64,000 nt of DNA, taken from Herbiconiux gentiana (lineage in GTDB: Bacteria > Actinomycetota > Actinomycetes > Actinomycetales > Microbacteriaceae). Positions within the stretch are counted from its first letter, which is position 1. Every line of letters begins with the position of its first letter. The stretch is taken from positions 248,001 through 312,000 of the forward strand of contig NZ_JANTEZ010000001.1 of NCBI RefSeq assembly GCF_024978135.1, read 5' to 3'. The notes beneath the pieces are model-generated. The model made no database searches. It had not been told where the DNA came from and saw only the letters and a list, made by a program, of their open reading frames with translations. Shown in pieces: positions 9,192 to 56,721 of this stretch. A program made the translations under genes and the position numbers.

Positions 9192-10702
9192 GAGCGCTGG
9201 GTGGCGAAGAAGCGGCGGAAGAAATCGACGTGGTCGCTCGGAGCAATGAGCATCGGTGACCAGACCGGGCCGAGCTCGAACGTCACCGGTGCGTCACCGA
9301 CGGGAGGCCAGACTGGCAGGCCGACACCGTTGGGGTCTCCCGAGGCGATGAAGTCGACGAGGTAGTCGACCATGATCGACGAGATCTCCCGGTCGACGGT
9401 CTGATAGTCAAGGTTCTCGACCTGCAGATTCCCGAGGAAGTAAGGCATCTCCGACCCGTGGTACGCGCCCCGCTCGGCACCGGCATCGCTCGGCGGACGG
9501 TGCGTCCAGTAGTAGGTGTAGAACGGGGCCCTCACTGTGCGTTGCCACTCCTGGGCCAAGAGCCAGGTCGAGATCCGGGTGCCCTCCTGCAAGGCCCGGT
9601 TGTGCGACGCGCGCGCCGTCTCGTCGTCATCGGCCGGGTAGAGGGCCAGAAACTCGTCCACCTGGTCGCCATAGCGAGCCGACGCATACGCGAGATATTC
9701 CGCGAGCGTGATCGTCGGGCGCGGTTTCGCACCCGACTCGTCGAGATTGTTGCCGCACAGTACCCGAACAGGATTCTGTGTACCCGACGCCACCACGTCC
9801 CAGTACGAGCTCGGCAGCACCCAGCCATCGACCGTCGGGCGAAACAGCGGCGGCCCGGGGGTGCCGGGAACGCTCGGGTCAGTGAGCATGGTCGGAGTCC
9901 TCAGCCGATCGGTGGGGAGTGCCCGCAGCTGTGCCACCGTCTCTGCGCCGAGGGACGCGGCGAAGGCCGCACCATCGTTCTCCGCCTGTGCGAGTTCGCG
10001 ATGTGAGGGACTGAGCGTTGCGATCGCCGGGTCTCGAGGAAAGAGTGCGGCGCTCTCGACGATGACCTGATGGAACAGGCCACGGGCGAGCGGTGAATAC
10101 GTCAGCATCAGCGTCGATGCGCCCCCACCGGATTGACCCGCGACGGTGACCCGATCGGGGTCGCCACCGAACTGCCCGATGTTGCGTTGCACCCAGCGGA
10201 GTGCAGAGATCTGGTCGAGAAGGCCGTAGTTCCCGGATGCACCATGGCCGCTCTCGTCACTGAGCTCGGGGTGGGCGAGAAATCCGAAGGCGCCGGTGCG
10301 GTAGTTGAACGTGACGACGGTGACGCCCTTGGAGGCGAGCGTCGAGCCGTCGAAATACGGGTCGGAGCCGTGTCCGAAAGCGAACCGGCCGCCGTAGATC
10401 CACACCAGCACGGGGCGCGGGGCGTCGCTGGGCTCGACGCTCGTCCAGACGTTCACGTGGAGACAGTCTTCGTCTTGAGCGAGCCCGGCCGCCTCTTCCT
10501 CCTGCGGGGGAACAGGGCCGAACGTATCGGCGGTGCGCACCTCGGTCCAGGGCGTGACCGGCCCGGCTGGGCGCCAGCGCGCTTCGCCTGCGGTCGACGC
10601 CCCGAATGGGATCCCCTTGTAGACCGCAACACCGGGGAGACGCGCGGGTACTCCCAGAACGGGGCCGGATTCGGTCGTGACGGGAGTGTTCAATCTGGTC
10701 AT
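9185..10702 (-). CDS. type-B carboxylesterase
   Basis: 505 residues, the usual length of the PnbA-type carboxylesterase family. Landmarks are the EDCLHVNVWTS signature (78-88), an oxyanion-hole segment WIYGGRFAFG (103-110; commonly HGGGF, here with Arg), nucleophile Ser191 in GQSGGGAS, and a C-terminal His in GAYHGSEMPYFLG. It hydrolyses carboxylic esters in the cytoplasm; no export signal is visible. Its end overlaps the start of the ceramidase-like fusion by 7 bases, so the two esterase-type enzymes are translationally coupled. Confidence 0.88.
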   Translation of the reverse strand: MTRLNTPVTTESGPVLGVPARLPGVAVYKGIPFGASTAGEARWRPAGPVTPWTEVRTADTFGPVPPQEEEAAGLAQDEDCLHVNVWTSVEPSDAPRPVLVWIYGGRFAFGHGSDPYFDGSTLASKGVTVVTFNYRTGAFGFLAHPELSDESGHGASGNYGLLDQISALRWVQRNIGQFGGDPDRVTVAGQSGGGASTLMLTYSPLARGLFHQVIVESAALFPRDPAIATLSPSHRELAQAENDGAAFAASLGAETVAQLRALPTDRLRTPTMLTDPSVPGTPGPPLFRPTVDGWVLPSSYWDVVASGTQNPVRVLCGNNLDESGAKPRPTITLAEYLAYASARYGDQVDEFLALYPADDDETARASHNRALQEGTRISTWLLAQEWQRTVRAPFYTYYWTHRPPSDAGAERGAYHGSEMPYFLGNLQVENLDYQTVDREISSIMVDYLVDFIASGDPNGVGLPVWPPVGDAPVTFELGPVWSPMLIAPSDHVDFFRRFFATQRSW

Positions 10703-16777: not shown

Positions 16778-17277
16778 GCCGCAGGGCTCTGCTGACTCAC
16801 CGTCACCTGCTCGAGCTTCTCGGTGAGCTGGCGCAGCGAGGGAAGCACGGCGAGCGCCCAGCGGCGATCCGGTTCACTCAACCCCTCGAGAGCCACAGCC
16901 ACCAGGTCGTCCCTCTGCCTGAGGAATGTCGTGGTCATCTCGACTGCGGCGGGGGTGGCGTCCAGGATGACCGCACGGCCATCGGACTCGCTCGGACGCC
17001 GTGTGAGGAGCCCCTCGGCGACCATCACCTTGACGAGGTTGCTGATCGTCGGCCGGGCAAGGCCCAGCTCTGACGCGAGGGCCACGAAGGTGAGCGGGCC
17101 CTTGGCCACCAGCTTGCCGATTACCTCCGCCTGCGCGGTGGGCAGGGGAGGAAGACTCGCCATCGTGCGGGCGCTCCGGACGATGGAGCGTTGCAGGGCG
17201 ATGATGGTGACGGCCAGTTCACGAGCCCCGTCCGAAAGCCCTCGACCGACGATCGCGAGATCCTCAGGCTCGCTCAC
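16753..17277 (-). CDS. MarR-family transcriptional regulator
   Basis: 174 residues beginning at GTG 17277, 18 bases after the GH43-like gene, so it is the last gene of the glycosidase operon. The winged helix is KGPLTFVALASELGLARPTISNLVKVMVAEGLLTRRPSESDGRAVILDATPAA; a long C-terminal helix mediates dimerisation. It is a paralogue of the MarR at 15534 and the two genes converge on either side of the SnoaL-like gene, suggesting duplication and inverted placement or acquisition of two related modules. Confidence 0.86.
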   Translation of the reverse strand: MSEPEDLAIVGRGLSDGARELAVTIIALQRSIVRSARTMASLPPLPTAQAEVIGKLVAKGPLTFVALASELGLARPTISNLVKVMVAEGLLTRRPSESDGRAVILDATPAAVEMTTTFLRQRDDLVAVALEGLSEPDRRWALAVLPSLRQLTEKLEQVTVSQQSPAAYLTEVEE

Positions 17278-17295
17278 GGTGCGCCCTCGTCTTCG

Positions 17296-18300
17296 TCACG
17301 CTCGAGCTCCTCCGTCGCATCCGATGGCGGGCGTCTTCACCGGCGTCGCCTGTGTCCACATTACAAGTGAGTTCGCCACGTGTTCCCACTCCGCTCGGGC
17401 GAGGTGCAGAATGCCGCCGTGCTTCGTGCCGGGCCGGATCACGACGCGGGCAGGGTCGACAGAACGCCAGTCGCCCGTGAGGAGATCATCCGTCTCGAGT
17501 GCGAAGTAGCCCTGCGGGGATTCGGCGTATTGGTCGAGGTAGAGATACCACCGAGCGACCCGATGATCGCGAACGATGATGGGTGCCTCCACGCGATCGT
17601 AGGTCTCGGCGGCGATTCTCGACGCGAGCGTGCGGAAGTCGTTCGAGAACAGCGTGGAACCGACCTCGTGGTAGACACCCGGCGACGAGGAACCGATCTC
17701 TTCGGCCTTTCCGAAACGATGGACCCGGCCGCCCTCGATCAGGATCGTCGTATCGATCACGTCACGTCCCGAATCGATGAAGATCTCCGCGGGCGAGAAG
17801 GTCACGAAGTCACGGGTGCGAGCAGAGAGAATCCGGCTGTACGCCTCACCCTGATGGGACGGATCCTGGCTCGAGTAGAGCTTCGACGACCAGAACACGA
17901 GGTGCTCTCCCGTCTCGGGGTCGAGGATGGACTCCGGGGCCCACGCCATCCCGGCTTCCGGCGGTGCGATCTCCACGAGTCGCGGGCCGGACCACGTGAC
18001 GAGGTCGGCGGAATCCCACAGCACCAGCGAGCGACTGCCCGATCGAACCCAGGTCCCCCAGTCACCCTCGCCGGATTCGACGTTCAGATCTGTGGCCAGA
18101 ATATGGAATCCGCCCATGGCGTCGCGAACCAGCACGGGGTCGCGTACCCCCCGGGTGCCGACGTCACTGGCCAGAACTGGTTCCCCGCCGCGCAGAGGGC
18201 GCCAGCGAAGAGGGTCGTCGCCGTCGCTCAGGGAGAAGTAGATCTTCTCTCCCCCGGGTTCGTCCCGAAAATGCACGAAGAGGTATCCGTACTCATTCAT
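17296..18300 (-). CDS. GH43-like five-bladed beta-propeller glycosidase
   Basis: 334 residues with no signal peptide. Blade-like repeats start at the N-terminus (NEYGYLFVHFRDEP...IYFSLSDGDDPLRW). Candidate catalytic acids by family pattern are Asp in GVRDPVLVRD, Asp in VIDTTILIEG and Glu in RVEAPIIVRD. Members of this clan release arabinose or xylose from side chains. The first 8 bases overlap the upstream GH gene's end, so the two are coupled. It is cytoplasmic and presumably trims imported oligosaccharides. Confidence 0.78.
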   Translation of the reverse strand: MNEYGYLFVHFRDEPGGEKIYFSLSDGDDPLRWRPLRGGEPVLASDVGTRGVRDPVLVRDAMGGFHILATDLNVESGEGDWGTWVRSGSRSLVLWDSADLVTWSGPRLVEIAPPEAGMAWAPESILDPETGEHLVFWSSKLYSSQDPSHQGEAYSRILSARTRDFVTFSPAEIFIDSGRDVIDTTILIEGGRVHRFGKAEEIGSSSPGVYHEVGSTLFSNDFRTLASRIAAETYDRVEAPIIVRDHRVARWYLYLDQYAESPQGYFALETDDLLTGDWRSVDPARVVIRPGTKHGGILHLARAEWEHVANSLVMWTQATPVKTPAIGCDGGARA

Positions 18301-48314: not shown

Positions 48315-48371
48315 ATGATCGAATTGCGAAGCACCACGCTTGCCGACGTCGACACAACCGAGCTCGTCTAA
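48315..48371 (+). CDS. possible 18-codon leader peptide coupled to the nuclease gene
   Basis: ATG 48315 follows AAAGAGG and encodes MIELRSTTLADVDTTELV; its stop TAA overlaps the start of the next gene as TAATG (48369-48373). The nuclease gene itself has no ribosome site of its own, so translation could depend on reading this short frame. It may also be the remnant of a deleted gene. Confidence 0.35.
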   Translation: MIELRSTTLADVDTTELV

Positions 48372-49459
48372 TGGGCATCGAAATGGGGCTGTGGCGAGCA
48401 GACGGCGACGCTCTAACTCGCATCGTGCCCACAGCGGTGGGCTTGGAAGCACAACTAGAGTCCTACATCGAATCGGACCCAATGATCCTGGGCGAGGCGA
48501 TGCTCGTCATCGGACGCCAGGTACCCACCGCGCATGGCGGCTACATCGACCTCCTCGCGATCGATGAGACCGCCGCAGCCCATGTGATCGAACTCAAGCG
48601 CGACAAGACCCCCCGGGATGTGACTGCCCAGGCGCTCGACTACGGCTCATGGGTCGCCACACTCGGCCGCGCCGACATCCTCAACATATTTGCGAACTAC
48701 CAGCCCGGCGTCGCGCTGGAAGAAGCCTTCGACGCCCAGTTCGGCGGCACACTGCCGGAAGACGTCAACGCCACCCAGGTGCTGACGATCGTTGCAGCGT
48801 CAGTAGACGCCGCAACCGAACGCATCGTCCGCTTCCTCAACGAAGACTTCGGCGTGCCCATCAACGTCGTCTTCTTCCGCCACTTCCACGATAACGGCTC
48901 CTCCTATTTGGCCCGGACGTGGCTCGTCGAACACGACCCACAGACATCGACCGCCGTCACGCACTCACGGAGGGCGAAGTCCCGGGAACCCTGGAACGGA
49001 CAGGACTGGTACGTCTCGTTCGGAGAATCTTCCGATGGTCGCCAATGGCACGATGGCGCCACCTACGGATTCGTTTCGGGCGGCGGTGACAAGTGGTTTT
49101 CCAGAACGCTCAAGAACCTCACCCCCGGGTCGCGCGTCTTTGCGTGCATTCCCAAGGTCGGATACGTGGGCGTGGGAACCGTTCTGGGCGAGGCCAAGCG
49201 ATTTGATCAGACCACGGTTCTCAATGCGGGGGCTGAGACCTCACTGATCGGTCTTCCATTGCAAGGCAACTATCGGCGCGATGGTGACGAGGACGACGAC
49301 ATTGCTGAGTGGGCCGTCCCAGTCGAATGGACACACACCGTTCCTCGCGAAAAGGGCTTCTGGAAGCCAGGGATGTTCGCGAATCAGAACACCGCAGCAA
49401 AGATGCGGAACCAGTTCACCATCGACCAGGTGTCAGAAGCCTTTGGTCTGGACGCATGA
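48371..49459 (+). CDS. NucS-like PD-(D/E)XK nuclease with EVE/PUA-like C-terminal domain
   Basis: 362 residues. The N-terminal nuclease domain carries Glu30 (AQLESYIESDPMILG), Asp60 (GGYIDLLAID), Glu74-Leu-Lys76 (HVIELKRDKTPRD) and Gln87, the complete NucS/DUF91-type PD-(D/E)XK motif set. Residues about 205-355 form a second domain (DWYVSFGESSDGRQWHDGATYGFVSGGGDKWFSRTLKNL, SRVFACIPKVGYVGVGTVLG) resembling EVE/PUA-type readers of modified bases. ATG 48383 is an alternative start. A nuclease joined to a modified-base reader suggests defence or modification-dependent restriction; this is inference. Confidence 0.75.
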   Translation: MGIEMGLWRADGDALTRIVPTAVGLEAQLESYIESDPMILGEAMLVIGRQVPTAHGGYIDLLAIDETAAAHVIELKRDKTPRDVTAQALDYGSWVATLGRADILNIFANYQPGVALEEAFDAQFGGTLPEDVNATQVLTIVAASVDAATERIVRFLNEDFGVPINVVFFRHFHDNGSSYLARTWLVEHDPQTSTAVTHSRRAKSREPWNGQDWYVSFGESSDGRQWHDGATYGFVSGGGDKWFSRTLKNLTPGSRVFACIPKVGYVGVGTVLGEAKRFDQTTVLNAGAETSLIGLPLQGNYRRDGDEDDDIAEWAVPVEWTHTVPREKGFWKPGMFANQNTAAKMRNQFTIDQVSEAFGLDA

Positions 49460-49543
49460 ACCAACCACTTGTTGCTGGGGCCGAGGCCATCACAATACAG
49501 AGAGCACCTGTCGCGTGTAGCGGCGCGCGTGTGAGGATGAGCC

Positions 49544-51529
49544 GTGCCTGAAGTTCACGTCTCCGCGGGTCAGCCGCTTCTCGAGTCCTACACGAAGACA
49601 CCCGGTGTAGGGGTCTGCGAGCTCGTCTGGAACGCCTTCGATGAAGATGCTCGGAACGTTCATATCAACGTTGAGCGCAGCGAACTCGGAGCAGTCGAGC
49701 AAATCTTCATCAAGGATGATGGGCGCGGAATGACAGCGGAACGGGCAAACCTCGCGTTCTCCCGAGTCGGCGACAGCTGGAAGCGCATGCCGGGCACTCA
49801 AACCGAAGATGGGCGTGCGGTGCACGGCAAGCTCGGCCGTGGGCGCTATGCAGCTTTCTCCCTTGGCTCCAGCGTGGAGTGGAAGTCCACCAGCGAATCT
49901 GTCGAAAGCACTCTCGCGAGTATCTCGATCTCGGGTTCACGGGGCGCGTTAGATAAGTTCGATATCGAGCAACTTGATGCGTCGGCTGAGGAAACAGGCA
50001 CGACGGTCCGGATCGTCGGCGTCCCCCTGGCCGCAGCGCGTGAGTTTGACGAAGCCAATGCCCTGCGTGAACAGATCTTGTTCGAATTCGCGTTGCAGCT
50101 CGAGCGGCACCCAGACTTCCACATCTACTTCCTAGGTGAGGAGATCAAACCGTCGGAGGTGATCGACAAGCGCACAGAGGTGCTCCTCCCGGTCCCTGAT
50201 GAGATCGCAGGTGAAGCGAATCTCACGATCATCGATTGGAAACTTACAAACGTAGAGCGTCGCCTCTATCTCTGTTCTGAAGACGGAGCCATTATCGACG
50301 AGATGCCGCCGCGCGTGCAGGCCGTGGGTGCAGAGTTCACGGCCTATGTGAGCTGGCATGGGTTCCGTGCCGACTCGGGAATCATGGTCGATTTAGACGA
50401 CGAATCCCCCGCCTCGAAAGTCATTGAGGCGGCAAAGAACGCTCTACGTGAACATTTGTCCGACGCCGGCCGCAAACGCGAAGCAGAAACGATCGAGCGG
50501 TGGCGCTCCGAAGGCGTTTACCCGTACAAGAGCGCGCCAGCGAACGAACAGGAGCGCGCCACCCAGGACACGTTCAAATTTGTCGCAATGGCCGCAGCAC
50601 GAACCGTGGATGAATCGAAGGCGCTCAAGTCGAAGGCTCTGGCGCTAAGTCTGCTAAAGGAGACGTTCGAGACTGACCCAGAAGCGTTGCTGCCCATCCT
50701 GCGAAAGTTCTCGCAGCTGCCTCAGTCGCGCATTGATGAGCTGAAAGAGGTGCTGGAACATACGACGCTTTCACAATTGATTTCTCTTGGACACGAAGTG
50801 GGCAGCCGCGTTGACTTCTTGTCCGGACTGAATGCGCTCCTCTTCGACAAGCAGATCAAGCGTCGCATGCTCGAGCGCCGGCAGTTGCATCGTATTCTCG
50901 CCCATGAAACATGGCTCTTTGGCGAGGGTTGGGCGATCACGGGTGATGACGAGCGACTCACCGAAGTCTTAAAGAAGTACCTCGACAAGCTCGGGCTCGA
51001 CGTTGAGCTTGCGAACGGGCCGCCTCTTCTTCGCGAGGATGGTTCGGACGCCATTCCTGACTTAGTCCTCGGTCGGCAGTTGGAAACGCGCGAGAACTTC
51101 TTCTCACACCTCGTCATCGAACTAAAGCGTCCAAACCATCGCCTCACCGATGATGATGTGACCCAGATCCGGAGCTATGCCAGCGCCATCACGAACGACG
51201 AGCGCTTCGATCAGCCGAACTCGCACTGGGATTTCTGGCTGATTGGTAACGAGATGAAGGACACCGTGGAGGAAGCCCGTAACCAGGCCAACCTCCCACC
51301 GGGCGTCGTACAAAACAGCAAAAAATACACCATCACTGTCCGCACTTGGGCGGAGATCATCGGAGACGCTGAACACCGTTTGAAATTTGTGCAGGAGTCC
51401 TTGAAATACGAGTCAGACCGGGATCAAGGCCTGGTCAGCATGCGGGATAAATATAGCGAGTACCTACCCCAGGCGGCTCTCGATTCGGAAAATGGCACTT
51501 CACCGGAGGAGGAGTCAGAAGTCGCCTGA
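49544..51529 (+). CDS. GHKL ATPase fused to a PD-(D/E)XK nuclease, candidate defence protein
   Basis: 661 residues from GTG 49544 (GAGGATGA upstream). The N-terminal GHKL (Hsp90/MutL/MORC-like) ATPase has the N box Glu26-x3-Asn30-x2-Asp33 (ELVWNAFDED), the G1 box DDGRGM (58-63) and the lid glycine motif GKLGRGRYAAFSLG (95-108). A transducer-like region and a helical linker (about 300-480) follow. The C-terminus holds a restriction-nuclease motif: Asp506 in AIPDLVLG, then Glu526-x-Lys528 in VIELKRP. This resembles ATP-controlled DNA-cleaving defence proteins. It lies 84 bases after the NucS-like gene. Confidence 0.78.
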   Translation: MPEVHVSAGQPLLESYTKTPGVGVCELVWNAFDEDARNVHINVERSELGAVEQIFIKDDGRGMTAERANLAFSRVGDSWKRMPGTQTEDGRAVHGKLGRGRYAAFSLGSSVEWKSTSESVESTLASISISGSRGALDKFDIEQLDASAEETGTTVRIVGVPLAAAREFDEANALREQILFEFALQLERHPDFHIYFLGEEIKPSEVIDKRTEVLLPVPDEIAGEANLTIIDWKLTNVERRLYLCSEDGAIIDEMPPRVQAVGAEFTAYVSWHGFRADSGIMVDLDDESPASKVIEAAKNALREHLSDAGRKREAETIERWRSEGVYPYKSAPANEQERATQDTFKFVAMAAARTVDESKALKSKALALSLLKETFETDPEALLPILRKFSQLPQSRIDELKEVLEHTTLSQLISLGHEVGSRVDFLSGLNALLFDKQIKRRMLERRQLHRILAHETWLFGEGWAITGDDERLTEVLKKYLDKLGLDVELANGPPLLREDGSDAIPDLVLGRQLETRENFFSHLVIELKRPNHRLTDDDVTQIRSYASAITNDERFDQPNSHWDFWLIGNEMKDTVEEARNQANLPPGVVQNSKKYTITVRTWAEIIGDAEHRLKFVQESLKYESDRDQGLVSMRDKYSEYLPQAALDSENGTSPEEESEVA

Positions 51530-51636: not shown

Positions 51637-51760
51637 GCGTTCGGGCGACGCGTTCGGTGAGCGATCCCTTATCGAGACGGTTGCAAAAGGGTGTTGCAGA
51701 TAAGGCACCTCTGCAGGCAACTAAGTCGGGCGGGGTAAACGGGCATCCCAGCATCGACGC

Positions 51761-51792
51761 GGCCGACGCGGCGGGCCAGCGCCGCGTCGGCC
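51761..51792. terminator. 13-bp perfect hairpin, likely bidirectional terminator
   Basis: GGCCGACGCGGCG (51761-51773) and CGCCGCGTCGGCC (51780-51792) with a 6-base loop, between the ends of two convergent transcription units. It is very stable; a U-tract is absent on both sides. Confidence 0.6.
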
Positions 51793-51866: not shown

Positions 51867-52619
51867 TCACCGAGCCGAAGCGGCGATCCAGTCCTCGAAG
51901 CGGGTGTCGAAGATGGTGGCGTCGGGGCCGGGGAGGAGCATACGGTCGGTGAGTCGTTGCCCGAAGTAGGTGGCTTCGGGATCGGTCACGATCGTGCGGT
52001 GATCGGCGAGAGCGGCAAGGCCACGTCGCACGAAATCGTCGATACCGAATTCTTCGGGTCCCGCGATCTCGATGGTGCCGTTCAGGGGCTCACCCACGGT
52101 GACTTGGGCCACAGCCGTCGCAACGTCATCCGCGGCCAGAGGGCGGATGAGTGCGTGCGACAGATGGACCTCATCACCGACCGTGCCGGCGCCAGCGATC
52201 CCCGTGACGAACTCGAAGAACTGGGTGGCGTGCACGAGGGAGTAGGGGATGCCGCTGGCTTTGAGGATGCGCTCCTGCGCAACCTTGGCGCGCTGATAGC
52301 CGCTATCGACCATCCGGTCTGAGCCCACCACGGAGACGGCGACGTAGTGGTTAAGGCTCGCGGCCTTTGCGGCCTCGACGATGTTCGTCGTGCTCATGGT
52401 AAAAAAATTCATTACGTCGTCATCGGCGAATGACGGCGAGTTCGAGACGTCGAGCACGGTGTTGGCGCCCGCGAGCACCTCGGCGAGGCCTTCACCGGTG
52501 AGAGTGTTCACTCCCAAGCGAGGGGCCGCCGCCACTGCATCGTGGCCGTGCGTTGCGAGCCGCTGGATGACCTTGGAGCCGATGAGGCCGGTGCCTCCGA
52601 TGACAACGATTCTGCTCAT
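51867..52619 (-). CDS. NmrA-like NAD(P)-binding oxidoreductase (SDR copy 1)
   Basis: 250 residues, atypical short-chain dehydrogenase. The dinucleotide-binding motif is VVIGGTGLIGSKV; the family's active-site region reads HYVAVSVVGSDRMVDSGYQRAKVAQE, with a Tyr-x3-Lys-like YQRAK; SLVHATQFFEFV follows. The member probably acts on a small carbonyl or quinone compound or senses NAD(P)H. It shares long identical stretches with the copy at 55957 (VLDVSNSPSFADDDVMNFF). It is preceded by a GTCACA-N15-CGGTCAT promoter and divergent from the copy at 52823. Confidence 0.87.
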   Translation of the reverse strand: MSRIVVIGGTGLIGSKVIQRLATHGHDAVAAAPRLGVNTLTGEGLAEVLAGANTVLDVSNSPSFADDDVMNFFTMSTTNIVEAAKAASLNHYVAVSVVGSDRMVDSGYQRAKVAQERILKASGIPYSLVHATQFFEFVTGIAGAGTVGDEVHLSHALIRPLAADDVATAVAQVTVGEPLNGTIEIAGPEEFGIDDFVRRGLAALADHRTIVTDPEATYFGQRLTDRMLLPGPDATIFDTRFEDWIAASAR

Positions 52620-52672
52620 GGGGCGATCCTTTCGATACTGCGGTGGGGCGCTTCCTCACCCGTCTGATCGCT

Positions 52673-52700
52673 ATGACCGGCCGGCAGGCCTTTCTGTGAC
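52673..52700 (-). promoter_or_regulatory. ECF41-type promoter P1 for SDR copy 1
   Basis: Minus-strand GTCACA (52700-52695), 15 bases, then CGGTCAT (52679-52673), continuing AGC. It ends 53 bases before the SDR start codon. The same boxes and spacing occur at five other sites in this region. Confidence 0.72.
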
Positions 52701-52754
52701 GGATCGCCGAATATGCGCCGTTGAGGCATCGCGCTGCCGTGGTTTGAGATCGTT

Positions 52755-52782
52755 GTCACGATTTGGCTGCTCGCCCGGTCAG
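52755..52782 (+). promoter_or_regulatory. ECF41-type promoter P2 for SDR copy 2
   Basis: GTCACG (52755-52760), 15 bases, then CGGTCAG (52776-52782). This is the weakest of the six matches (one change in each box), but the spacing and the 40-base distance to the start codon are conserved. It is divergent from P1. Confidence 0.6.
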
Positions 52783-52822
52783 TACTGGTTAAGAGACCAC
52801 CTAGGGAACCAGGGAGAACGTC

Positions 52823-53581
52823 ATGCGAGTAGTTGTCGTCGGGGGAACCGGCTACGTGGGAAGGCGAGTTGTCGAGGCGGTGCAGCATCTCGGGCACGCC
52901 GTGGTGTCGGCCTCGCCGAGCAATGGTGTCAACACGGTTACGGGCCGGGGCATTGATCGTGCGCTGGAAAGGGCGGATGTCGTGATCGACGTCACGAACC
53001 CGACGAGCACCGACGCGGTCGCGGCGCGGGAGTTCTTCCAGGCGTCGACCAGACGACTGCTCAAGGCCGAGCGGGAGGTCGGGGTGAAGCACCACGTCGT
53101 GCTCTCCCTGGTGGGCGCGGACTCGTCGGCCAACGACGGTTACTTCTCCGCGAAGGCCGCCCAGGAGTCGATGGTCGAAGCAGGCAGCATCCCGTTCTCG
53201 ATTTTGCGCGCGACGCAGTTCTTCGAGTTTGCGCGCACGATTGCGGCTTGGAACACCCACGAAGACACCGTGCGTCTGCCCGGCACCGAGGTTGAGCCCA
53301 TCGCCGTGCACGACGTCGTCGCCGCCCTGGTGGAGGTCGCCTCCTCGGCCGCGCGCAACACCGTCGTCGACATCGCCGGCCCAGAACGCATGTCCTTGGA
53401 CGGCTTCGTGCGTCAAGTGCTGCTGAAAGACCACGACACCCGGTACGTCGTGCAGGATGCCAGCGCCCTTCCCCATGGGTTCAACGTCGGGGGGCGCCTT
53501 CTCGTCCCTGCTGGTTCAGACAGGATGATCGCCCCCACCACGCTCGGCCAATGGCTCGACACCTCGAATGGACGCCGCTAA
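52823..53581 (+). CDS. NmrA-like NAD(P)-binding oxidoreductase (SDR copy 2)
   Basis: 252 residues with VVVGGTGYVGRRVV at the N-terminus and SLVGADSSANDGYFSAKAAQE, giving an intact Tyr-x3-Lys (YFSAK). It is more diverged than copies 1 and 3. GGGAG precedes the ATG. It is followed after 122 bases by the MerR gene. The substrate is unknown; family members reduce or epimerise small carbonyl compounds or act as redox sensors. Confidence 0.86.
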   Translation: MRVVVVGGTGYVGRRVVEAVQHLGHAVVSASPSNGVNTVTGRGIDRALERADVVIDVTNPTSTDAVAAREFFQASTRRLLKAEREVGVKHHVVLSLVGADSSANDGYFSAKAAQESMVEAGSIPFSILRATQFFEFARTIAAWNTHEDTVRLPGTEVEPIAVHDVVAALVEVASSAARNTVVDIAGPERMSLDGFVRQVLLKDHDTRYVVQDASALPHGFNVGGRLLVPAGSDRMIAPTTLGQWLDTSNGRR

Positions 53582-53666
53582 TGCCGGCGGTGGTCATCGT
53601 CGGTGGGGCCCATCTTTCTCCGACACGGAGTAATGGTGCGTTCCGTGTTTTGGGTGTTCGTCGGGC

Positions 53667-53697
53667 TTGACCTGGAGCGCACTCCAGGTTGCACGAT
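53667..53697 (+). promoter_or_regulatory. MerR-type promoter with dyad operator
   Basis: TTGACC (53667-53672) is followed by an approximately 19-base spacer that contains the dyad ACCTGGAG-CGCA-CTCCAGGT (53670-53689), then a CACGAT -10 (53692-53697). Long spacers with a central dyad are the hallmark of MerR-activated promoters. Transcription would begin about at the ATG of the MerR gene (53704), implying a leaderless message and autoregulation. Confidence 0.75.
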
Positions 53698-53703
53698 GAG
53701 TTC

Positions 53704-54141
53704 ATGGCAGCCGTGATCTTACCCACGATCGACGCCGAGGTACCCGCCGGTGGCCTCTCGATCGGCGCCGTCTCCGAGGCGACCGGTCTCTCGATCGATA
53801 CGCTCCGCTATTACGAGAAGGCGGGGCTGCTCCTGGACCCGGCGCCGCGCGACCCGGGCGGCCGGCGCCGCTACGGTCACGACGACCTCGACTGGATCGC
53901 CGGCCTGATCATGCTCCGCGAGACCGGCATGAGCATCGCCGACGTGCGGCGCATGGCCGAACTCAGCCGCGTGCCCGACACGGAAGCTGAACGCCTCGTC
54001 GTGCTTGAAGCGCACCGGGAGCGTGTGCTCGCCGAGCTGGAACACACCCGGGCCCACCTCACGGCACTAGAGAAGAAGATTTCCGCGTACACCGCCGTGA
54101 TCGCCCTTACCGCCGACCATGACGACGATCCCGCATCCTGA
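53704..54141 (+). CDS. MerR-family transcriptional regulator
   Basis: 145 residues. The N-terminal winged helix (LSIGAVSEATGLSIDTLRYYEKAGLLLDPAPRDPGGRRRYGHDDLDWIAGLIMLRETGMSIADVRRMAEL) is followed by a coiled-coil helix (HRERVLAELEHTRAHLTALEKKISAY). No Cys-based metal site is present, so it resembles the AdhR/aldehyde- or redox-responsive group. ATG 53704 is chosen over the upstream ATG 53689-frame start because the promoter -10 lies directly before it. It activates itself and the aldo/keto reductase 18 bases downstream. Confidence 0.9.
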   Translation: MAAVILPTIDAEVPAGGLSIGAVSEATGLSIDTLRYYEKAGLLLDPAPRDPGGRRRYGHDDLDWIAGLIMLRETGMSIADVRRMAELSRVPDTEAERLVVLEAHRERVLAELEHTRAHLTALEKKISAYTAVIALTADHDDDPAS

Positions 54142-54159
54142 ACCCCGAAAAGGACAACC

Positions 54160-55158
<999 letters not shown>

Positions 55159-55172
55159 TCAACCGGAATCAC

Positions 55173-55200
55173 GTCACAGGGCCTGGTGCAGGTCGGTCTT
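55173..55200 (+). promoter_or_regulatory. ECF41-type promoter P6 for the 84-residue gene
   Basis: GTCACA (55173-55178), 15 bases, then CGGTCTT (55194-55200), continuing AGC. It ends 45 bases before ATG 55246 and starts 14 bases after the aldo/keto reductase stop. Confidence 0.7.
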
Positions 55201-55245
55201 AGCTGGGGAACGCTCGGACCTTCCGGGCCGATGAACGGAGCAGCC

Positions 55246-55500
55246 ATGAACCGCGTCCCTGAATCCGAACTCGTCCTCGTGCCGGGCGGAACCCTGATCA
55301 CCCCGACCCCCGAGGAAGGGCGAGCCCTTTCCATCACCATGGCCCGGCACAGCATCCACAACATCCAGCCCGACCTCGACGTGCTGAAGGGCGGCCGCCC
55401 GAACTACTCGACCACCCCCGACAGCCTGATCGCCGTCAGTCAGGTCATCGCCATCGAGTTCCAGACGGTGGCCGCCGCAAACAACTACTGGCGCAACTGA
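55246..55500 (+). CDS. small protein of unknown function (84 residues)
   Basis: ATG 55246 with GGAG 6 bases before opens an 84-codon gene. The peptide (NRVPESELVLVPGGTLITPTPEEGRALSITMARHSIHNIQPDLDVLKGGRPNYSTTPDS, ending NNYWRN) is soluble and has no domain I recognise. The frame extends upstream to a GTG at 55186, but that would overlap the P6 promoter. It lies 25 bases before a DUF1622 gene and probably forms an operon with it under ECF41 control. Confidence 0.65.
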   Translation: MNRVPESELVLVPGGTLITPTPEEGRALSITMARHSIHNIQPDLDVLKGGRPNYSTTPDSLIAVSQVIAIEFQTVAAANNYWRN

Positions 55501-55525
55501 GCTACCACCGGATCACCGTGTCCTG

Positions 55526-55903
55526 ATGGAGTTCTCACAGATCATCGCGGGCACAGGCCTCGTGCTGGACGCGAGCGGAGTCGTCGTCATCGCCGTCGGC
55601 TCCGCTCTTGCGGCAATCCGCGCTGCCGCGGATGCGGCGCACAAACGCCCGGATCTCTACCACCGTTTTCGCCGCCGGCTCGGCCGTTCCATCCTTCTCG
55701 GACTCGAACTCCTGGTCGCAGCCGACATCATCCGCACCGTGGCCGTCGCCCCGACGCTCCGGAGTGTCATCGTGCTGGGCATCATCGTCATCATCCCCAC
55801 GTTCCTCAGCTTCTCGCTGGAGCTGGAAGTCACCGGTTCCTGGCCATGGCAGAAACGAACTCTCGCGACACGTGTCACAGACCAGCCAGAAGCCCGGTCA
55901 TAG
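55526..55903 (+). CDS. DUF1622 membrane protein
   Basis: 125 residues with three hydrophobic segments (LVLDASGVVVIAVGSALAAI, SILLGLELLVAADIIRTV, SVIVLGIIVIIPTFLSFSLELEV) and the DUF1622 signature RRLGRSILLGLELLVAADIIRTVAVAPTL, ending in the typical GSWPWQK. One oddity: the usual IRTFLS reads IPTFLS. Function is unknown; the family occurs in bacterial inner membranes. Promoter P3 of the next SDR gene lies inside its 3' end. Confidence 0.82.
   Translation: MEFSQIIAGTGLVLDASGVVVIAVGSALAAIRAAADAAHKRPDLYHRFRRRLGRSILLGLELLVAADIIRTVAVAPTLRSVIVLGIIVIIPTFLSFSLELEVTGSWPWQKRTLATRVTDQPEARS
55874..55901 (+). promoter_or_regulatory. ECF41-type promoter P3 for SDR copy 3
   Basis: GTCACA (55874-55879), 15 bases, then CGGTCAT (55895-55901), continuing AGC. 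It lies within the last codons of the DUF1622 gene and ends 55 bases before ATG 55957. Confidence 0.74.
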
Positions 55904-55956
55904 CTTGTGACGGCCGCGGAACACACCGCGGGCCGCGCCGAGCGGAAGAAGCACTC

Positions 55957-56721
55957 ATGTCCAGGATCGTCGTCATCGGAGGCACCGGCCTCATCGGCTC
56001 CAAAGTCGTCACCAAGCTCACCGAGCACGGCCACACCGCCGTCTCCGCGTCGCCCAACTCGGGAGTGAACACCCTCTCCGGCGAAGGCCTCGCCGATGTG
56101 CTCGCCGGCGCCGACACCGTGCTCGACGTCTCGAACTCGCCCTCGTTCGCTGACGACGACGTGATGAACTTCTTCACCACCGCCACCACGAACACCCTCG
56201 CCGCCGCGAAGACCGCCGGCCTCAACCACTACGTCGCGCTCTCTGTCGTCGGCGCCGACCGGATGGTCGACAGCGGCTACATGCGCGCCAAAGTCGCGCA
56301 GGAGAACCTCATCAAGGCCAGCGGCATCCCCTACTCGCTCGTGCATGCCACCCAGTTCTTCGAGTTCGTCACCGCCATCGCCGGCAGCGCCACCGTCGGC
56401 GACGAGGTGCACCTCTCGCATGCTCTCATCCAGCCCATGGCCGCCGAGGACGTCGCCACCGCTGTCGCCCGCACCACCGCCGGCGCACCCCTGAACGCCA
56501 CCATCGAGGTCGCTGGCCCCGAAGAGCTGGGCCTGGACGACCTCATCCGCACTGGCCTCGCGTTCCGTGGCGACCCCCGCATCGTGGTCGCCGACCCCGA
56601 GGCCACCTACTTCGGCGAGAAGCTCACAGAACGGATGCTCCTCCCCGGACCCGACGCGACCGTCTTTACCACCCGCTTCGCCGACTGGCTGCCCGCCAAC
56701 CCGGCGCCGGCCGCGAAGTAG
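55957..56721 (+). CDS. NmrA-like NAD(P)-binding oxidoreductase (SDR copy 3)
   Basis: 254 residues, closest to copy 1: VVIGGTGLIGSKVV, NTVLSVSN-type strand VLDVSNSPSFADDDVMNFF, and YMRAKVAQENLIKASGIPYSLVHATQFFEFV. ATG 55957 is set by the family N-terminus; the longer upstream frame has no support. It is followed by the AhpD-like gene after 8 bases, so oxidoreductase and carboxymuconolactone-decarboxylase-like protein form the classical ECF41-linked pair. Confidence 0.88.
   Translation: MSRIVVIGGTGLIGSKVVTKLTEHGHTAVSASPNSGVNTLSGEGLADVLAGADTVLDVSNSPSFADDDVMNFFTTATTNTLAAAKTAGLNHYVALSVVGADRMVDSGYMRAKVAQENLIKASGIPYSLVHATQFFEFVTAIAGSATVGDEVHLSHALIQPMAAEDVATAVARTTAGAPLNATIEVAGPEELGLDDLIRTGLAFRGDPRIVVADPEATYFGEKLTERMLLPGPDATVFTTRFADWLPANPAPAAK

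Follow-up and report, generated by a model that had tools for sequence, protein, structure and literature searches.

Do two neighboring nuclease genes in a tract of foreign base composition form one defense system, or do they only stand side by side? The question is raised by a 64-kb stretch of Herbiconiux gentiana DNA (contig NZ_JANTEZ010000001.1, positions 248,001 to 312,000 of the forward strand), called the window below, which carries between its positions 48371 and 51529 two open reading frames (ORFs) of 362 and 661 residues. The shorter encodes a NucS-type PD-(D/E)XK nuclease with a predicted EVE-like domain (gene 1, the NucS-EVE gene), and the longer joins a GHKL ATPase to a C-terminal PD-(D/E)XK nuclease (gene 2). 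A first-pass annotation of the letters alone had called both ORFs, which we find at the same positions, and had proposed that they make up a two-gene defense module. Our analysis shows the pair to be a single-genome adjacency, because no second locus, genome, viral contig or plasmid among those sampled carries both genes. The reading that we favor, and hold to be fairly probable, is that two independent, laterally mobile defense-type genes, encoding a modification-dependent nuclease (gene 1) and an ATP-gated nuclease (gene 2), lie side by side in one foreign-composition tract and are not one system. Each gene would belong to a kind that has been described or listed before, and together they would be a chance pair.

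Linkage of the two genes

Both genes are on the + strand, 84 nucleotides (nt) apart, and family alignments place both start codons at family-typical positions. The difference in base composition from the flanking genes, which the first-pass annotation had noticed, is real: GC content is 0.61 in gene 1 and 0.57 in gene 2 versus 0.64 to 0.69 in most flanking genes, and GC content at third codon positions is 0.74 and 0.68 versus 0.79 to 0.85. The low-GC tract runs from ~47.0 to 51.9 kb and includes the gene of a SHOCT-domain protein. Adjacency on one strand, the short gap, the shared low GC and a + strand on which we found no terminator-like site between genes 1 and 2 would all suit a true two-gene module, in which the NucS-EVE protein would find modified phage DNA and recruit or license the GHKL-nuclease, or in which one protein would guard the other.

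Such a pairing was sought in neighborhoods of ~9 to 10 kb on each side, where contigs allowed, of 22 NucS-EVE and 17 distinct GHKL cellular loci, in ~595 genomes (200 from the family and 395 from the class), at 11 NucS-EVE and 30 GHKL loci on viral contigs, and in 52 and 53 plasmid records, respectively. No second case was found in any of these sets. The other gene was absent from all cellular loci (0/22 and 0/17 carrying both), the two never occurred together at the viral-contig loci (0/41), and no accession was common to the two groups of plasmid records (105 in all). Full-length NucS-EVE genes were present in ~19 of the class genomes and full-length GHKL fusions in 9, with both in the window's genome only, which was also the only one of the family genomes with full-length matches to both proteins. 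The conserved co-occurrence that a module implies is thus absent from these sets, and the proposed pair, as a module, is very unlikely. That the pair is not a new system saves follow-up effort. Another genome of the family (G134) combines a full-length GHKL-nuclease gene (C5:145573-147513) with a NucS-like match (C5:116361-116840, E 1e-7), but the match is weak and, at a distance of 29 kb, too remote for the two to be taken as the pair.

Gene 1 and type I restriction-modification

Gene 1 matches the PADLOC model PDC-S11, a single-gene candidate named in a genome survey, over its full length (483 bits, E 1.3e-145, residues 1-360 on 1-356 of 358) with no family-level difference, and in the window it is an orphan member of this candidate family. 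An alignment of 20 sequences shows residues E26, D60, E74, K76, R82 and Q87 to be invariant, and in a phmmer match to P. abyssi NucS (2vld) spanning residues 23-88, with positions counted by hand, E26/D60/E74/K76/Q87 align to E127/D160/E174/K176/Q187. The NucS-type residues listed in the first-pass annotation thus hold for Asp60, Glu74, Lys76 and Gln87 but not for Glu30, which is variable in the family; the right residue is E26, on E127. When a structure was predicted (mean predicted local distance difference test [pLDDT] score of 77.7, predicted template modeling [pTM] score of 0.49) and searched with Foldseek, the N-terminal half matched NucS 2vld and EndoMS 5gke, and the C terminus matched the EVE structures 2g2x, 1zce and the eponymous 2eve as well as YTHDF2 (E 0.025 to 0.033, probability 0.87 to 0.98); E. 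coli SduA was also matched, with a weaker E-value. No EVE match was obtained with Pfam at the C terminus, and the EVE/PUA-like nature of this domain, also read from the letters in the first pass, is supported by the modest Foldseek matches of the model but is not certain.

The nuclease core and the E-D-ExK-Q residues are shared with NucS/EndoMS, and a role in mismatch repair like that of these enzymes would be in keeping with them, but the rest of the protein and its distribution argue otherwise. Gene 1 falls below curated NucS cutoffs (29 bits versus 216 for NF003270, 18.9 versus 252 for NF002876, and 18.6 versus 24 for NucS_C), does not match the N-terminal domain of NucS and instead ends in an EVE-like domain, and its family is patchy and occurs on plasmids and viral contigs as well. 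Gene 1 is not the repair gene, because the canonical mismatch NucS of the same genome (145.7 bits to NucS_C) is encoded on another contig (C14). We therefore rejected a mismatch repair role as extremely improbable.

The strongest contextual signal of the gene 1 family is type I restriction-modification (R-M). The commonest Pfam families near its relatives include HSDR_N (8), Methylase_S (7) and HsdM_N (6), and tblastn located hsd genes near 10 of the 22 cellular and 6 of the 11 viral gene 1 relatives versus 1/17 and 1/30 GHKL loci (one-sided Fisher test, 0.007 and 0.0006, respectively). In five genomes, drawn from at least three actinobacterial families (L134, L139, L135, L140 and L141), the gene 1 relative follows hsdS by 3 nt in the order hsdM-hsdS-nucS(EVE)-hsdR, and in three of these it ends 9 nt before hsdR. 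The nearest relative (92% identical, same genus, G208) lies downstream of hsdM-hsdS-hsdR and a resolvase and has no GHKL neighbor. Further relatives were found with type I R-M on a Kocuria plasmid, with SNF2 and hsdM/hsdS in Deinococcus, and at a BREX locus in the haloarchaeal Halomontanus. The hsd-linkage label changes at least eight times on the gene 1 tree; type I R-M linkage has therefore been gained or lost many times.

This recurrent linkage, and above all the place that the gene takes in several families, 3 nt after hsdS and 9 nt before hsdR, would also fit a NucS-EVE protein that is an accessory type I R-M subunit, working alongside HsdMSR (it might, for instance, cleave modified DNA or help to break DNA down), with the window copy a leftover without partners. 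We consider this unlikely: many relatives have no hsd genes within ~9 kb, including a whole clade of one family (f26) and two of the three closest (G017 and G080), and the orphan is probably active by itself, because its catalytic residues are intact. Somewhat better placed, though tentative, is the idea that PDC-S11 proteins recur as a fourth component built into type I R-M operons, such that one operon would restrict both unmodified DNA (type I) and modified DNA (type IV-like), with orphans such as gene 1 being detached, self-sufficient forms. It would offer a view of how bacteria answer phages whose DNA modification evades type I restriction, and the repeated placement of PDC-S11 candidates within operons of type I R-M is a by-product of this analysis worth carrying forward.

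Under the reading of two independent genes, gene 1 is most likely a modification-dependent (type IV-like) DNA endonuclease, as predicted from its domains. The EVE domain would bind a modified base in incoming DNA, the NucS-type PD-(D/E)XK domain would then cut the modified DNA, and relatives in type I R-M operons would catch phages with modified DNA that evades the HsdR cut. Fusions of EVE and PD(D/E)XK domains have been described as putative modification-dependent (type IV) restriction enzymes, and standalone EVE proteins as closely associated with type I R-M, by Bell, Wolf and Koonin in 2020 (PMC7641849), in a text that does not name NucS. Gene 1 has the same predicted domain combination and an intact PD-(D/E)XK site, but its nuclease is NucS-type and N-terminal, and in actinobacterial hsd operons it is the fusion itself that is found.

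On the conjugative enterobacterial plasmid pE16KP0218-1 of Klebsiella (L201, 6752-10243), the gene of a second PD-(D/E)XK nuclease and a lipase-family gene flank a distant NucS-EVE relative (28% identity). Copies of 28% identity are also present on Providencia, Proteus, Morganella and other Klebsiella plasmids.

Gene 2, a GHKL ATPase-nuclease fusion

Gene 2 matches HATPase_c_3 (6e-16) and carries the motif DDGRGM in its GHKL part. Across 14 cellular sequences, and across 26 once viral-contig relatives are added, E26, N30, D33, D58, G60, G62 and the lid glycines G95/G98/G100 are invariant, as are D506, E526, K528 and Q541 of the nuclease; both the intact GHKL ATPase and the second PD-(D/E)XK site (Asp506, Glu526, Lys528) of the first-pass annotation are thereby borne out. 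The predicted model (pLDDT 76.5, pTM 0.50) found MORC3, TRAP1 and MutL as its best folds in Foldseek, with alignments to MORC3 and MutL of ~350 to 420 columns that cover the GHKL and putative S5 parts. When the PDB was searched with this protein's GHKL profile, essentially only GHKL proteins came back, and the C-terminal nuclease was therefore judged by its conserved residues, by the predicted order of strands and helix (strand 507-512, strand 520-527 with E526, helix 536-550 with Q541, strand 560-568) and by matches to HSDR_N_2, the commonest nuclease match of the family (19 of 26 aligned sequences).

This predicted architecture (GHKL, S5-like, C-terminal D-ExK nuclease) is that of paraMORC3, for which Iyer, Abhiman and Aravind in 2008 (PMC2292703) described an N-terminal GHKL domain, an S5-like domain and a C-terminal restriction-endonuclease fold with D-ExK, with standalone members that have no conserved neighbors and with hosts mostly among proteobacteria and bacteroidetes. 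We place gene 2 beside paraMORC3 by its architecture, and its host, unlike theirs, is actinobacterial. VcSduA, a Shedu type I-D protein, protects against phages and requires its GHKL glutamate E27 and its nuclease lysine K557 (PMC12137116); gene 2 is likewise a single gene for a GHKL and C-terminal PD-(D/E)XK protein, and its E26 and K528 correspond in role to E27 and K557, but its family gave no match to SduA_C/DUF4263 (PF14082; 0/26 sequences at E 0.1). The GHKL part also matches the BbrUII/HgiDII restriction enzymes (NF050001), but with 75 bits versus a cutoff of 550, and no restriction methyltransferase model was matched in the window. By analogy, gene 2 most likely encodes an ATP-gated DNA nuclease that works alone: the GHKL domains would dimerize on ATP, the middle domains would clamp DNA, and clamping would allow the C-terminal nuclease to cleave phage DNA, a mechanism proposed for VcSduA. 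Actinobacterial single-gene GHKL-nuclease fusions would then be of interest as architectural relatives of a proven anti-phage protein.

The nearest gene 2 relatives are in Curtobacterium flaccumfaciens, Mycolicibacterium and Gordonia, all without a NucS-EVE gene. One on a Psychrobacter plasmid stands beside dcm, LlaMI and Drt2, and others are near Hachiman, type III R-M, type IIG, Uzume and AbiE genes. A tRNA gene lies within a few hundred bases of some (L014, L036 and L013), which fits mobile genes. Together with the PDC-S11 match of gene 1 and the R-M and BREX surroundings of its relatives, these neighbors uphold the view that each gene, taken singly, is defense-like.

The closest gene 2 relative, that of C. 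flaccumfaciens (L014:10001-11925, 72 to 83% identical), is broken by a frame change and has a tRNA-Ser gene ~100 nt away.

Such a split relative, the low-GC foreign tract and the lack of R-M partners alongside gene 1 would be in keeping with both genes being decayed remnants without function, but both frames are full length with all catalytic residues retained, and decay seems improbable.

Several points weigh against our reading of two independent genes with these roles. Genes 1 and 2 are arranged like an operon, and since only one genome shows the pair, a lineage-specific pairing could exist. The EVE assignment leans on a model of pTM 0.49 and on matches at E ~0.03. Fewer than half of the cellular gene 1 relatives have hsd genes nearby, and the Streptomyces-like clade (family f26) has none, so that modification-dependent restriction is not the sole possible role of gene 1. 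The GHKL loci are a small control for the linkage comparison, in which related sequences are not independent.

Other features of the tract and window

Features of the window and related copies, with positions in the window unless a genome is given
Feature	Position	Strand	Remarks
SHOCT-domain protein gene, 214 residues	47603-48247	+	Inside the low-GC tract
Leader ORF, 18 codons, MIELRSTTLADVDTTELV	48315-48371	+	TAA overlaps the gene 1 ATG
Gene 1 (NucS-EVE), 362 residues	48371-49459	+	ATG start; predicted domains: NucS-type PD-(D/E)XK (~23-110), middle alpha/beta, C-terminal EVE/YTH-like (~208-345)
Gene 2 (GHKL ATPase, predicted S5-like domain, helical linker, C-terminal PD-(D/E)XK), 661 residues	49544-51529	+	GTG start
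Noncoding element, ~50-75 nt	51691-51765	+	162 nt 3' of gene 2; five further genomes of the genus have copies
Element copy	G208:C1:1014175-1014231
Element copy	G205:C2:468184-468239
Element copy	G204:C23:469215-469276
Element copy	G200:C1:1327931-1327979
Element copies	G210:C62:14393-14466 and 17275-17348		2.9 kb apart
NmrA-like NAD(P)-binding paralogues	51867-52619, 52823-53581, 55846-56721		Three in 5 kb (51867-56721)

The SHOCT gene was tried as a third system member and was absent within ~9 kb of relatives of gene 1 or gene 2; because it is not found near relatives of either, it is not counted in a system. Its sole good match in the genus (53%) is in G202, a genome without NucS-EVE at the DNA level.

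The window was found to hold no further known defense genes, weak matches to general MADS-system models aside. Searches around the two genes for island edges gave only short, weak flanking repeats, a sigma-70 promoter scan gave nothing above chance, and a clean empty site could not be defined within the genus, as flanking genes are too diverged or, like the NmrA-like paralogues, multicopy.

A leader similar to that upstream of gene 1, MIELRTDTISTESI, with a TGATG overlap, lies 5' of a 92%-identical gene 1 relative in another species of the genus (L143, ~9330-9375), and the leader peptides of both species begin with MIELR; no such ORF was seen in L030 or L031. The overlap with the gene 1 start makes translational coupling possible.

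The element downstream of gene 2, with the core GGGCGGGGTAAACGGGCATC, is shared by six genomes of the genus, the window's included, and lies within or close to intergenic stretches. A tRNA-derived attachment site was ruled out, as there is no tRNA in the window, and a known RNA was not recognized either, as Rfam gave no match at gathering level and a chance-level one only at a relaxed threshold. The element could be a repeat, or else an RNA not described so far, and we treat it as no more than a neighbor of gene 2.

The remainder of the window consists of transport and catabolic genes and one resolvase. The NmrA-like paralogues listed in the table adjoin MerR-type and aldo/keto reductase genes.

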